From a virus, in the IMG/VR virus record IMGVR_UViG_3300025057_000023, positions 1-36,542 of that record: DNA of 36,542 nucleotides; one strand, 5' to 3'. Positions 1 to 36,264 of the stretch are shown one piece after another (position 1 is the first letter of the stretch; every line of letters begins with the position of its first letter). The notes below the pieces were generated by a model that had not been told where the DNA came from, did not search any database, and saw only the letters and a program-made list of their open reading frames with translations. Made by a program: the position numbers and the translations under genes.

Positions 1-604
1 GCCAGTTTGTAATTGGTTTATCATTTCCATCATTCCAACCATTCGCCTTCCAAGATTCATATTTTAATGTTAAGTCTTGTAAATCTACATTCTTTTTTCG
101 ATATCTACCAAAGTCTAAAAATTCTTTGAGGGTAGGTATATTATTTACATTATTATCATTATTATCATTATTGTTAGTAGGTAAGGTTTGTTTACTTCTT
201 GTTTCTTTTTTGTTTACCAGTTGTAGTAGGGTTTGTTTACTTTGGTCTTGATATTGTTTATAATTATTAACAGTAATAAGTGTTAGAGCTTGTTTACCTT
301 TTCCTATTTTTTGCAACTTTAACATATTATCTTTCTCTAATAGTTTAAAAAACTTTGATACTGTTTTAGGAGTTGTTTTAAACATTTCCGACCATGTTCT
401 TAAACTGTTTGTTGATTGTCCTTTTTGTATCTCATACACCTCATAATTTCTTGTAAATTTGTTTGGTTTATGATTTACTTCAAACAGTATTATTATCCAC
501 CATTTTAAATATTTTTCATCTTCAAATATCCAATGGTTTTTAATTGACCTGTAAAGACTAATCCAACCAGTTTGATAATTTTCTTGGTATTCGTTTACTT
601 CCAT
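1..604 (-). CDS. Phage replication initiator, allele A (C-terminus cut by window edge)
   Basis: The ORF starts at the ATG at 604-602 and stays open to base 1, giving 201 codons without a stop. The N-terminus (about residues 13-105) begins GWISLYRSIKNHWIF and carries a tryptophan-rich stretch (KYLKWW) followed by a predicted winged helix (WSEMFKTTPKTVSKFFKLLE). This is the pattern of phage replisome-organiser proteins. A low-complexity Asn/Asp linker (about 145-160) leads into IPTLKEFLDFGRYRKKN and the motif YESWKANGWNDGNDKP, a DnaD-like C-terminal region common in replication proteins. This C-terminal part is identical to that of the protein at 35590-36153, whereas the N-domains are unrelated. 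It probably loads the helicase encoded at 34514-35587. The gene sits directly behind a structured RNA. Function is inferred from architecture. Confidence 0.75.
   Translation of the reverse strand, partial: MEVNEYQENYQTGWISLYRSIKNHWIFEDEKYLKWWIIILFEVNHKPNKFTRNYEVYEIQKGQSTNSLRTWSEMFKTTPKTVSKFFKLLEKDNMLKLQKIGKGKQALTLITVNNYKQYQDQSKQTLLQLVNKKETRSKQTLPTNNNDNNDNNVNNIPTLKEFLDFGRYRKKNVDLQDLTLKYESWKANGWNDGNDKPITNW
138..172. repeat. ATTATTATC-type microsatellite in the initiator linker
   Basis: A tandem run of ATTATTATC units lies inside the initiator gene and encodes an Asn/Asp-rich hinge between the N- and C-terminal domains. In the other allele (35590-36153) the hinge is a different repeat, so the two alleles diverge exactly here. 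Confidence 0.7.
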
Positions 605-615
605 ATTTTAAAACT

Positions 616-707
616 AAAAAAGCCCTGTAACTGTGTCGGGCGTCCTACTTCTCGACTTTGCTACAGAGCTTAGTTTAAATATTTTTGTGCTATTTGTAGG
701 ACGGCAC
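616..707 (-). ncRNA. Structured two-hairpin RNA with loop-loop pairing, allele A
   Basis: Read on the minus strand, the element has hairpin P1 (GTGC 707-704 with GCAC 690-687). A conserved A/U-rich linker containing ATATTTAAACTAAGCTC follows, then hairpin P2. The outer stem of P2 is GCTCTGTAGC (669-660) with GTTACAGGGC (631-622), ten pairs including G-U. Its inner stem is GTCGAG (656-651) with CCCGAC (640-635), with one A-C mismatch. A T6 tract (621-616) follows, so P2 can act as an intrinsic terminator. The P1 loop segment CGTCCTAC (703-696) is perfectly complementary to the P2 loop segment GTAGGACG (648-641), allowing eight loop-loop pairs. The initiator ATG is 11 nt beyond the T-tract and a -7 box is 5 nt before the first base. 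The copy at 36161-36252 supports each helix by covariation. Family unknown. Confidence 0.8.
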
Positions 708-712
708 TTTTA

Positions 713-720
713 CAAATATA
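713..720 (-). promoter_or_regulatory. Bacteroidetes-type -7 box TATATTTG driving the structured RNA
   Basis: The minus strand reads TATATTTG, a perfect TAnnTTTG. Transcription should begin a few bases downstream, at the first base of the structured RNA (about 707). There is no canonical TTTG -33 box; the 20-bp repeat at 726-745 occupies that position, which suggests control by a factor bound there. The same box precedes the second RNA copy. Confidence 0.6.
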
Positions 721-787: not shown

Positions 788-1150
788 CTAAAAAGGTAAA
801 TCATCATCTGCATCAGTTAAAGCGTGTGCATTTTCTACCACTTCTTTAGGTGTCATCTGTTGCCCTTCTTCACTTGCTTCAATCTTCCAACCCTTAAAGC
901 TTACAAAGTTCCTAGTAACACCTTCCTGATTAGTCCAGTCTCTACCTGCTATGTTTGCAGTACATACCACCGCTTGACCTTCTGAGTAATTATCTAAGAC
1001 AGTAACCCTATCATTGATAAATTCTACACCTATGTCTTGTGGGTAGTCTCCATCTGGTACTGTTATCACTACTGTTCTTTTTTGGAATTTATCTGATACC
1101 CTATTAGTATCTTCAATTCGCTTAACTGTTCCTTTTAATTCTACTATCAT
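788..1150 (-). CDS. DUF3127-type single-stranded DNA-binding protein
   Basis: The protein has 120 residues. It opens with an OB-fold-like region (MIVELKGTVKRIEDT) and contains NIAGRDWTNQEG and FVSFKGWKIE, hallmarks of the DUF3127 proteins found in Bacteroidetes and their phages. It ends DADDDLPF, the acidic Asp-Asp-Asp-Leu-Pro-Phe tip by which single-strand binding proteins recruit replication and repair partners. It should coat single-stranded DNA during phage replication. Its ATG overlaps the stop of the upstream gene (ATGA), so the two are translationally coupled. A second, slightly different copy starts the right end of the window, with Ser to Gly in EASEEG and Gln to Ser in WTNQEG. Downstream come the paired repeats and the structured RNA. 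Confidence 0.85.
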   Translation of the reverse strand: MIVELKGTVKRIEDTNRVSDKFQKRTVVITVPDGDYPQDIGVEFINDRVTVLDNYSEGQAVVCTANIAGRDWTNQEGVTRNFVSFKGWKIEASEEGQQMTPKEVVENAHALTDADDDLPF

Positions 1151-29176: not shown

Positions 29177-31372
29177 TTAGAATAGTGTTAGTTCTGCATT
29201 TTCTTCTACTGCTGCTTTATGGTTTGCAGCATTTAAATTAAAATAGCTTTCTTTTAGTTCTATACTTATTGACTTTCTACCATTTTTTAATGATGCAAAG
29301 CCCTCTGAACCAATACCTCCAAATGGGCTTAATACAGTTTCACCCTCATTAGAATACAAATGTAGTATTCTTTCAATGGTATCTAACTGTAATGGACAAA
29401 TATGCTTCTCATCATTACCATCTCTAGCGGATCTATATTGCAATGTTCTTGAATAATCAATATCATACCAAACAGGGCTAGCATACTTTTGCCACAAATC
29501 AACAGGCAAATAATCTCTTTCACTTGAATCAGTATCTTGATGTGTTATAGGTGTTTCATTTTCTCCTTCGTTTCTAAAGAATAAAATATAATCAGGAATA
29601 CCCACTCTAGACATTACAGAATCCTTTTTAATTGTTTTGTGCAGTAATCCAAGCGCCTTAGTTCTTTGCATTTCTGTTACTGGATTCTTCCATATTGTAG
29701 TTCTTGCATGATAAATAAAACCTTCCTCTTTAAACCAATCAACCAACATACCACTAAAATCTCTTAAACCTATAAATCCTTCTTTACCTTTTTGAATAGG
29801 TAAATCCATACAATGTACAGCGCATATTCTACCTGACTTTAATACTCTTTTTAATTCTGGTATTAAATATCTAAAGTGGTTTTTAAATTGTTCATAATCC
29901 GATACATTACCCATATCCTCTGATTTATCAGAATAAACATAAAGCTCTGCAAATGGAGGGCTAAAAACAACTAAATCAGCTTCATTATCTTTTACCTTTT
30001 TAATCTCTTGTACACAATCACCATTAAACAATTTATAATCTTCTGTTATTACTTGTTTAGATTTAACTTCTGCATTTTTATTTGCTTTATAATCTGTGTT
30101 TGCTGAATACTTACTCATTTCTTGTATCATTTCTTTATGCTTTTTTTCTTTTTGTATAATTGATTTTCTAACATTAACCTGTGATTCAGGTACTAATAAA
30201 TGTACTTTAACTTTGTTTTTTTGTCCGAACCTATAACATCTTCTAACAGCTTGATAAAATGCTTCAAACTTAAAATCATATGAAGTAAACACCATGTTAA
30301 AACATTGCTGGTAGTTCATTCCAAAACTTGCTATACTTGTTTTAGTTATTAGTGTTTTAAATTCTTTCTTAGCAAATCCATTTAAATTTTTTGCTTTTAC
30401 TTCTGGTTTATCAGATCCTTGTACATTGATAGAATCTGTTAAAACCTTATTTAATTGATTAGCTTCATCATTCTTTAATGTCCAAACTATCCACTGCTCT
30501 TTTGAATTATTTACAAGATTACAAGTTTTATCTATTCTTAATTCAAATGATCTTTTTAAATCCTTGTGTAGGTCAGTAGCACTAACAGCAACATCACCAA
30601 ATAAAGTATTGGTATTGTTTTCTACTTTTATTTTATGCTCTATAAACTCAATCTCAGGTAAATCATAACCATCAGAATAGAATCCTAATGTTTTTGGATT
30701 GTCTAGTGATATTGACCATGTGCAAACATACTTCCAAAAATCATCTTTAGCGTGTTTTCTTAATCTCCATTTTGAAGTTTCACCGCCATCATGAACAAAG
30801 AACATAGCCAACATTTCTAGATAACTCATAGCACCTAAAAATTCAGAATGCTGCCCTAGTTCCATGTGATCATTAGGTGATGGTGTAGCAGTACAAGCAA
30901 GCTTATAGGGTGTTTGGTTAAATGTATCAATTATTAATCTTGATAACTTGCCATCCCTACCTTTTAAAATAGAACTTTCATCTAATACCACACCAGAATA
31001 ATGTGAAGTATTTATGTTTTTTAGTTGGTCATAGTTTGTTATTTGAACCATGCATTCAGGATGATTTGTATCACTAACCTCAATCCCAAACTTAGATCCT
31101 TCCATTTTAGTTTGTTCTACTACTGCCAATGGTGCTAATATTAAAACTGGTTTAGATGTTTCTATTGCAACCTGCTCAGCCCAACTTAACTGCATTAGTG
31201 TTTTACCTAAACCACAATCAGCAAACACAGCAAACCTACCCTTTCTTAGGGCTATTTTTACAATGTGCTTTTGAAAGTCAAATAGATGGCTGTTTAGCTC
31301 GGATTCTTTTACATCAAATCCAGAACTAATAAATGTCTTTTCCTTAGTCTTTAGGAAATCTTCATAATTCAT
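29177..31372 (-). CDS. SNF2-type helicase fused to a DNA N4/N6 methyltransferase
   Basis: The protein has 731 residues. The helicase half (1-400) has Walker A CGLGKTLM (53-60), motif II DESS (131-134), motif III TATPSPND (161-168) and motif VI AVRRCYRFGQ (375-384). The second half is a methyltransferase of permuted (beta-class) order: catalytic SPPF (471-474) after VVF, and the AdoMet-binding SPFGGIGSEG (682-691) plus SIELKESYF near the end. SPPF/SPPY is typical of N4-cytosine and some N6-adenine enzymes. No restriction nuclease is fused. It may methylate phage DNA against host restriction, with the motor translocating on DNA. It lies between the NinG and MazG genes. Confidence 0.85.
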   Translation of the reverse strand: MNYEDFLKTKEKTFISSGFDVKESELNSHLFDFQKHIVKIALRKGRFAVFADCGLGKTLMQLSWAEQVAIETSKPVLILAPLAVVEQTKMEGSKFGIEVSDTNHPECMVQITNYDQLKNINTSHYSGVVLDESSILKGRDGKLSRLIIDTFNQTPYKLACTATPSPNDHMELGQHSEFLGAMSYLEMLAMFFVHDGGETSKWRLRKHAKDDFWKYVCTWSISLDNPKTLGFYSDGYDLPEIEFIEHKIKVENNTNTLFGDVAVSATDLHKDLKRSFELRIDKTCNLVNNSKEQWIVWTLKNDEANQLNKVLTDSINVQGSDKPEVKAKNLNGFAKKEFKTLITKTSIASFGMNYQQCFNMVFTSYDFKFEAFYQAVRRCYRFGQKNKVKVHLLVPESQVNVRKSIIQKEKKHKEMIQEMSKYSANTDYKANKNAEVKSKQVITEDYKLFNGDCVQEIKKVKDNEADLVVFSPPFAELYVYSDKSEDMGNVSDYEQFKNHFRYLIPELKRVLKSGRICAVHCMDLPIQKGKEGFIGLRDFSGMLVDWFKEEGFIYHARTTIWKNPVTEMQRTKALGLLHKTIKKDSVMSRVGIPDYILFFRNEGENETPITHQDTDSSERDYLPVDLWQKYASPVWYDIDYSRTLQYRSARDGNDEKHICPLQLDTIERILHLYSNEGETVLSPFGGIGSEGFASLKNGRKSISIELKESYFNLNAANHKAAVEENAELTLF

Positions 31373-35589: not shown

Positions 35590-36153
35590 TTAGTCAGTAA
35601 AAAAGTCATTTCTATTTATAACTGGATTATTATTCTTTTTGCTGTTGTCCTCTTTAATGTATCTCAATGTGTTAATTAGTTTTGCTTGCCAGTTTGTAAT
35701 TGGTTTATCATTTCCATCATTCCAACCATTCGCCTTCCAAGATTCATATTTTAATGTTAAGTCTTGTAAATCTACATTCTTTTTTCGATATCTACCAAAG
35801 TCTAAAAATTCTTTTAATGTGGGAATATATTTCTCTTTCTCTTTCTCTTTCTCTTCTACTTGTAGGGTAGGGGTGTTAAACCCCCCTTCGGTAGGGGGTA
35901 GGCAACCCCCTTCGGTAGGGGTTAAAATATCACCTGTTTTATCTTCATATCCCTTTACTTGACTATCAATAGAATTAACTTGACTTATCCAAGCAAATTT
36001 AGCCATCCCTTGTAAGTTTTCTGGTTTGATGCCTAAAAACTGTCTATCTAATAAAGCTTCAATGAATACTAGCTTATCTTCTTTAGGAAGTTCATTGAAC
36101 ACATCATAGTAGGATCTAAAAAAATTAAATCCTTTTCTTTTTGTTTTCTTCAT
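35590..36153 (-). CDS. Phage replication initiator, allele B
   Basis: The protein has 187 residues. The N-terminal part (MKKTKRKGFNFFRSYYDVFN, then EDKLVFIEALLDRQFLGIKP) looks like a DUF6291-type domain and is unrelated to that of allele A. A Lys/Glu repeat (EEKEKEKEKY) joins it to the C-terminal region with FLDFGRYRKKN and YESWKANGWNDGNDKP, identical to the one at 1-127. It ends NPVINRNDFFTD. It lies two bases upstream of the helicase gene and seven bases after the T-tract of the structured RNA. A role in origin opening or helicase loading is inferred. Confidence 0.75.
   Translation of the reverse strand: MKKTKRKGFNFFRSYYDVFNELPKEDKLVFIEALLDRQFLGIKPENLQGMAKFAWISQVNSIDSQVKGYEDKTGDILTPTEGGCLPPTEGGFNTPTLQVEEKEKEKEKYIPTLKEFLDFGRYRKKNVDLQDLTLKYESWKANGWNDGNDKPITNWQAKLINTLRYIKEDNSKKNNNPVINRNDFFTD
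35831..35921. repeat. CTTTCT microsatellite and two CCCCTTCGGTAGGGG hairpins in the hinge
   Basis: A CTTTCT tandem run (35831-35856) encodes Lys-Glu repeats. Two near-identical units, CCCCCTTCGGTAGGGGG (35882-35898) and CCCCCTTCGGTAGGGG (35906-35921), each form a tight hairpin and encode TPTEGG/PPTEGG. They occupy the domain border of the initiator gene and may promote recombination there. Confidence 0.65.
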
Positions 36154-36160
36154 AATGTGT

Positions 36161-36252
36161 AAAAAAAAAGCCCAACAGATTAGTATGCGTCCACTTCATA
36201 CCTCTCTGTCGAGCTTAGTTTAAATATCTTGCGCTATGTTGTGGACGTGCGC
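36161..36252 (-). ncRNA. Structured two-hairpin RNA with loop-loop pairing, allele B
   Basis: This is again 92 nt on the minus strand. P1 is GCGC (36252-36249) with GCGC (36234-36231). The linker ATATTTAAACTAAGCTC is unchanged. The P2 outer stem is GCTCGACAGA (36214-36205) with TCTGTTGGGC (36179-36170), ten pairs. The P2 inner stem is GTATG (36201-36197) with CATAC (36187-36183). A T9 tract follows (36169-36161). The P1 loop CGTCCAC (36247-36241) pairs with the P2 loop GTGGACG (36194-36188). Compared with allele A, most stem pairs differ yet remain paired, and the loop-loop helix has lost one base on each side together. That makes selection on structure likely. Confidence 0.8.
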
Positions 36253-36256
36253 TCTA

Positions 36257-36264
36257 CAAATATA
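36257..36264 (-). promoter_or_regulatory. -7 box TATATTTG before the structured RNA, allele B
   Basis: The minus strand reads TATATTTG, four bases before the first base of the RNA. As in allele A no TTTG -33 box is present; the palindromic repeat at 36285-36304 begins 20 bp upstream of the box. Confidence 0.6.

Follow-up and report, generated by a model that had tools for sequence, protein, structure and literature searches.

A covarying two-hairpin RNA with predicted loop-loop pairing upstream of replication initiator genes in Bacteroidota phages

Genomic context of the element

The window, i.e., the whole stretch of DNA analysed here, is a 36,542-base IMG/VR virus contig whose ends overlap (first ~1.0 kb against last ~0.85 kb). 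Within the overlap, about 126 bases of the C-terminal part of the replication initiator agree fully, the ssb part is about 97% identical, and the stretch between them, comprising the initiator N-terminal domain, an RNA element and repeats, is divergent. The natural reading of these ends is a genome of about 35.7 kb that would be circular or circularly permuted and assembled through two strain alleles. Both alleles of the element named in the original prediction are present; given the overlapping ends, they are probably strain alleles of one locus and not two copies per genome. The initiator alleles share the identical C-terminal stretch and have unrelated N-terminal domains. Because the alleles differ in this domain as well as in the RNA, the two parts seem to have been exchanged together as one cassette. 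The features of the locus are listed in Table 1; the 23-nt repeats next to the promoters are a possible operator or iterons.

Elsewhere in the window, positions 2256-2690 encode a small protein with only the DnaA C-terminal DNA-binding domain, similar proteins adjoining the replication genes of phages phi19:3, Freya and mumin. Positions 29177-31372 encode a single protein of 731 aa that matches phage families of helicases as well as of DNA methyltransferases.

Table 1. Coordinates of the RNA element and neighbouring features (window positions unless a contig is named).
Feature	Position	Strand	Evidence or remark
Allele 1 replication initiator	2..604	-	Cut by contig end; N-terminal domain unlike that of allele 2
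Allele 1 RNA element, P1 through T-run	616..707	-	Sequence, fold statistics, model R1, architecture scan
Allele 1 P2 terminator-like hairpin	620..671	-	Sequence, fold statistics, architecture scan
Allele 1 P2 arms	671-660/631-620	-	
Allele 1 P2 inner stem	656-651/640-635	-	
Allele 1 P2 loop strand GTAGGACG	648-641	-	T-run to 616
Allele 1 linker AAAAATATTTAAACT	672..686	-	Sequence; common to L011
Allele 1 P1 hairpin GTGC/GCAC	687..707	-	Loop strand CGTCCTAC at 703-696; sequence, architecture scan
Allele 1 -7 promoter box TATATTTG	713..720	-	Sequence; TAnnTTTG motif in 65/71 relatives of one subtype
Two 23-nt repeats TTATATCTAAATGAATATAA	723..785	.	40 bases apart, just upstream of allele 1 promoter
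DUF3127 single-strand DNA binding protein	788..1150	-	Upstream neighbour
Allele 2 replication initiator	35590..36153	-	DUF6291 N-terminal domain; C-terminal domain same as allele 1
Allele 2 RNA element	36161..36252	-	Sequence, fold statistics, model R1, architecture scan
Allele 2 P2 terminator-like hairpin	36168..36216	-	Inner stem GTATG/CATAC; sequence, fold statistics, architecture scan
Allele 2 P2 loop strand GTGGACG	36194-36188	-	T-run to 36161
Allele 2 P1 hairpin GCGC/GCGC	36231..36252	-	Loop strand CGTCCAC at 36247-36241; sequence, architecture scan
Allele 2 -7 promoter box TATATTTG	36257..36264	-	Sequence
Allele 2 repeats TTATATCTAAATGAATATAA	36285-36353		Same spacing as in allele 1, opposite orientation
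Second element of L196	1342-1446		
Second element of L205	1788-1888		

Anatomy of the two window alleles

In both alleles the RNA lies on the minus strand (707->616 and 36252->36161) and follows the same plan, namely a TAnnTTTG promoter, a hairpin P1, an AT-rich linker, a terminator-like hairpin P2 and a T-run. The -7 box, of the type that forms the primary promoter motif of Bacteroidetes, precedes the RNA in both alleles, and the T-run ends 11 nt (allele 1) or 7 nt (allele 2) before the initiator ATG, in agreement with the original prediction. The predicted P1 change from GTGC/GCAC to GCGC/GCGC was confirmed on the minus-strand sequence, as was the replacement of five of the six inner pairs of the P2 outer stem with pairing kept; these outer stems have 10 pairs, or 12 counting the flanking AA/TT. 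The inner stem, described as paired in both alleles, pairs 5/5 in allele 2 and has five pairs plus one A.C mismatch in allele 1. The pairing between the P1 and P2 loops shortens from 8 bp in allele 1 to 7 bp in allele 2 through the loss of one base on each side, as had been claimed, and the linker, said to be invariant, is nearly so, differing at the 5' end by a single substitution and a single indel.

The minus strands of both alleles fold more stably than dinucleotide shuffles (z of -3.5 and -5.2); their plus strands are unremarkable against shuffles, with z of about -1.5. P2 has the hairpin and T-run of a terminator, and a simple terminator scan fails to call it because its loop is longer than 8. 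An architecture scan scoring promoter, P1, loop-loop pairing, P2 and T-run (cut-off 53) gave 58 and 57 for the window copies, one match per genome at or above 53 in the isolates lillamy9-1, elemoA, Freya_1 and phi13:2 and one in the L011 contig, all at the initiator leader, and zero matches at or above 53 in 6.1 Mb of shuffled sequence.

Relatives and distribution in phages

The family had not been recognised from the sequence, and the Rfam search likewise returned no match: in Rfam 15, no family reached the gathering threshold for the window or for the loci of 16 relatives, and a permissive scan of the window region gave matches at chance level only. No earlier description of the RNA was found in the literature searched, which covered subscription journals and preprints little.

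A search of viral contigs with the linker and T-run pattern yielded one true relative, L011, in which the element lies directly before a distant initiator and has the promoter motif, linker and terminator-like hairpin of the window, with a third and unrelated loop pair (GTTTGACCA/TGGTCAAAC). The other matches to the linker alone were due to chance, L011 being the sole exception; L146 was rejected as a chance match, having no promoter box. Alignment of the initiator C-terminal domain led to 39 loci, many with the same architecture in another sequence, placed immediately before the initiator or separated from it by one small ORF. Many phages, among them L195, L214, L215, L223 and L232, have a slot between the RNA and the initiator for a single short ORF (about 55-85 aa) that varies strongly.

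Through the initiator of L194, isolate phages carrying the element were reached, including Lillamyvirus, Muminvirus, Elemovirus, Cellulophaga phi19:3 and phi13:2, and Polaribacter Freya and Danklef. The element thus lies directly upstream of initiator/primase genes in Flavobacterium, Cellulophaga and Polaribacter isolates and in dozens of IMG/VR contigs, mostly with unrelated sequence, and its proposed link to the replication initiator holds across isolates of several genera. Neither the window DNA nor the window and L011 initiators retrieved anything from phage collections, and PLSDB contains no plasmid with a relative of the L194-type initiator. The gaps read in Nonlabens P12024L, F. psychrophilum FpV9, phage 1/32 and Tenacibaculum Gundel_1 showed no element; at this site, Maribacter Panino has a hairpin resembling a terminator, with a loop match of only 5 bp and no -7 box.

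Model R1, built only from the other subtype with promoter and T-run included, finds both window copies (E of 7e-7 and 2e-5 in a search space of 247 kb). Without promoter and T-run, the match to the other subtype is marginal for allele 1 (E of 0.05 and 0.06) and lacking for allele 2. Both window alleles have the defining features of the family, i.e., promoter, P1, linker, P2 with T-run, and loop-loop pairing of at least 7 bp. Common architecture and position with the other subtype are therefore firm; shared descent, as judged by sequence, is not. A search with R1 of 396 Flavobacteriales genomes for a host or prophage RNA gave one weak match, just after a TonB-receptor-like ORF, and this was judged to be chance.

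Covariation and loop-loop pairing

Among 23 curated elements, the loops pair with their own partner over a mean of 8.0 bp, against 4.2 bp with swapped partners, involving 21 different strands. The main evidence comes from an independent set of 71 distinct elements of one subtype, selected only by linker and internal-loop letters, because the curated elements were found partly by scanning for pairing and are biased toward it. In this set, the loops pair over at least 7 bp in 66 of 71 elements and over exactly 8 bp in 61, a length of 7 bp being reached by shuffled loops in 29/1420 cases.

Covariation was counted over 49 distinct sequences prefiltered for pairing, promoter and T-run. These contain 256 double changes, compared with 73 +/- 6 in shuffles, and have a covariation score of 0.615 versus 0.228 when shuffled and at most 0.167 when slid. 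The named structure is paired at 95.6% across these sequences and the loop-loop helix at 97.2%, with compensatory changes in six of its eight pairs, and RNAalifold, left free to choose one consensus structure, arrives at the loop-loop helix. The fold proposed in the original prediction is thus strongly supported by many compensatory changes among its relatives. Even close isolates have differing loop pairs, such as lillamy (GTGAGACG/CGTCTCAC), mumin (GTGGAACG/CGTTCCAC) and morran (GTGAGAAG/CTTCTCAC). It is virtually certain that these elements constitute a real RNA family of Bacteroidota phages, of about 90-100 nt and new to Rfam, whose predicted kissing interaction is 7-9 bp long.

Subtypes have the loop pair in opposite polarity: a purine-rich GTGAGAC-like strand is located in the loop of P1 or in that of P2, depending on the phage (L232, L235 and L240 contrasting with the window, L194 and L234). 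A metabolite riboswitch is unlikely, since the subtypes have no conserved nucleotides in common.

To be closed within one molecule, a continuous P1-loop-P2 stack would need a linker of about the observed length, and linker length rises with stack size (r of 0.75 over 14 hand-measured elements, partly driven by L011). This geometry favours a kiss formed within one molecule, dimers being less likely. In phages with two elements, the loop pairs do not match each other (7-9 for self, 3-6 for cross).

Gene context and transcription signals

The element is always on the strand of the downstream gene, with a median of 26 nt (8-52) from the start of the T-run to the next start codon, and only one of 61 spacers has a TAnnTTTG box between T-run and start codon. 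For 44/64 elements, one of the first three ORFs is related to an initiator or helicase; for 20/64, none was recognised. Second elements were found before an MT-A70 methyltransferase gene (L196), before a related gene (L205), and before the phi13:2 gp060 operon, at a late position. Since some elements precede such other genes, the element is not tied only to initiators and is not only a replication-control RNA. These second elements are of different RNA subtypes in L196 and L205, as if leader modules were exchangeable.

Antiterminator pairing with a P2 arm, sought in 9 elements, was not above shuffles except for one arm of L194. On the opposite strand, the TAnnTTTG box, the only box type counted, is present in 9/59 elements against 6.4 expected. 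No consistent short leader ORF was seen by eye.

Proposed function

Sequence and statistics establish the fold and its loop-loop pairing as well as the position and the promoter motif, and they show that no recognisable promoter follows the T-run. Here it is proposed, with a probability of roughly 0.52, that the element acts in cis as a leader by which transcription of the replication operon is terminated before the initiator. The RNA would start at its own TAnnTTTG promoter and form two hairpins, the 5' one and the terminator-like one, joined by the loop-loop kiss. Whether it comes from this promoter or from upstream genes, polymerase would encounter the P2/T-run terminator a few bases short of the start codon, and the initiator would be produced only by read-through, the RNA probably limiting the amount of this copying protein. 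The pairing between P1 and P2 loops would set the folding of P2 and the efficiency of termination; termination, a regulated read-through and the part of the loop pairing in it are predictions. The cis leader is favoured because the T-run lies close to the start codon and a promoter hardly ever intervenes, so that transcription of the downstream gene has to pass the terminator unless it is served by other promoters. The element does not reproduce the classical plasmid attenuators, because neither antiterminator pairing nor an antisense promoter stands above chance. Of the functions originally offered, a leader terminator and an independent small RNA thus stay, and the classical two-state attenuator and the antisense type of replication control are unsupported.

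The main, tentative alternative is that the element is a separate small RNA acting in trans, equipped with a promoter and terminator of its own, in which the kissing fold would give stability or a protein-binding shape and the site before the initiator would serve co-expression or inheritance with the replicon. It agrees with the compact ~95-nt unit bounded by promoter and T-run, with the presence of elements before unrelated genes and with the non-matching loops of two elements in one phage. Against it, a start codon always follows the element within a few bases, a promoter almost never intervenes, and the freely varying loop and stem sequences are ill-suited to a fixed target in trans.

Control of copy number as in plasmids, with an antisense or sense RNA recognising the loops in trans and loop divergence setting the incompatibility of co-infecting phages, is unlikely. 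The exchange of RNA and initiator N-terminus as a cassette between near-identical phages, as well as the concerted loop differences of related phages, would suit it, but the counts of antisense promoters argue against it, and so does the failure to see a leader peptide by eye. It is similarly doubtful that the terminated RNA of a cis leader also acts in trans, its free loops pairing with the partner loop of nascent leaders and changing read-through. If this were true, it would be a sense RNA, in place of an antisense one, by which the phage counts its own genomes. Co-infecting phages would then fall into compatibility groups as their loops diverge, a possibility suggested by the RNA/initiator cassette swapped in the window.

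A replication-origin RNA (a primer or origin-opening transcript made beside the initiator) is very improbable: the element adjoins the initiator and ssb genes and has repeats 40 bases apart beside its promoter, yet second copies precede the MT-A70 methyltransferase gene and the late-position operon, and the covariation indicates an RNA fold, not an RNA-DNA hybrid. A decoy against host defence, such as a guide-RNA mimic, would fit a small phage RNA of predicted stability with its own promoter, but it is the least probable reading, as no sequence is conserved across subtypes and the position is fixed before replication genes.

Comparison with known systems

The repZ leader of IncI-alpha/I-complex plasmids (ColIb-P9), as cited in PMC10724649, forms a pseudoknot between a hairpin loop further upstream and a segment close to the start of the initiator gene. 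The phage element resembles it in the hairpin-loop pairing ahead of an initiator and in a kissing specificity that diverges among relatives, whereas ColIb-P9 has its partner near the ribosome site, an antisense RNAI and a leader peptide (PMC10724649). In the phages, it is the loop of a hairpin resembling a terminator that serves as partner, a dedicated promoter lies directly before, and no antisense promoter stands above chance. The terminator within the leader of an initiator gene is shared with the pT181 attenuator (cited in PMC10724649). Unlike pT181, the phage element has no countertranscript promoter, and no mutually exclusive pre-emptor pairing was found. The IncI-alpha repZ pseudoknot leader and the pT181 attenuator are the nearest systems in logic.

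Similarly to the new element, the prohead RNA of phage phi29 has covarying loop-loop pairing in a poorly conserved sequence. Fold and place differ, the new element lying by replication and not packaging genes. The phage put antiterminator RNA and c4 RNA are also short, with two hairpins; put acts on polymerase without a terminator, c4 is an antisense RNA, and no Rfam family matched the element.

Significance

A strongly covarying structured RNA, found at the initiator gene in phages of several Bacteroidota-infecting genera, is absent from Rfam. It offers a concrete handle on how such phages may time their replication, and isolates with cultured hosts carry it.
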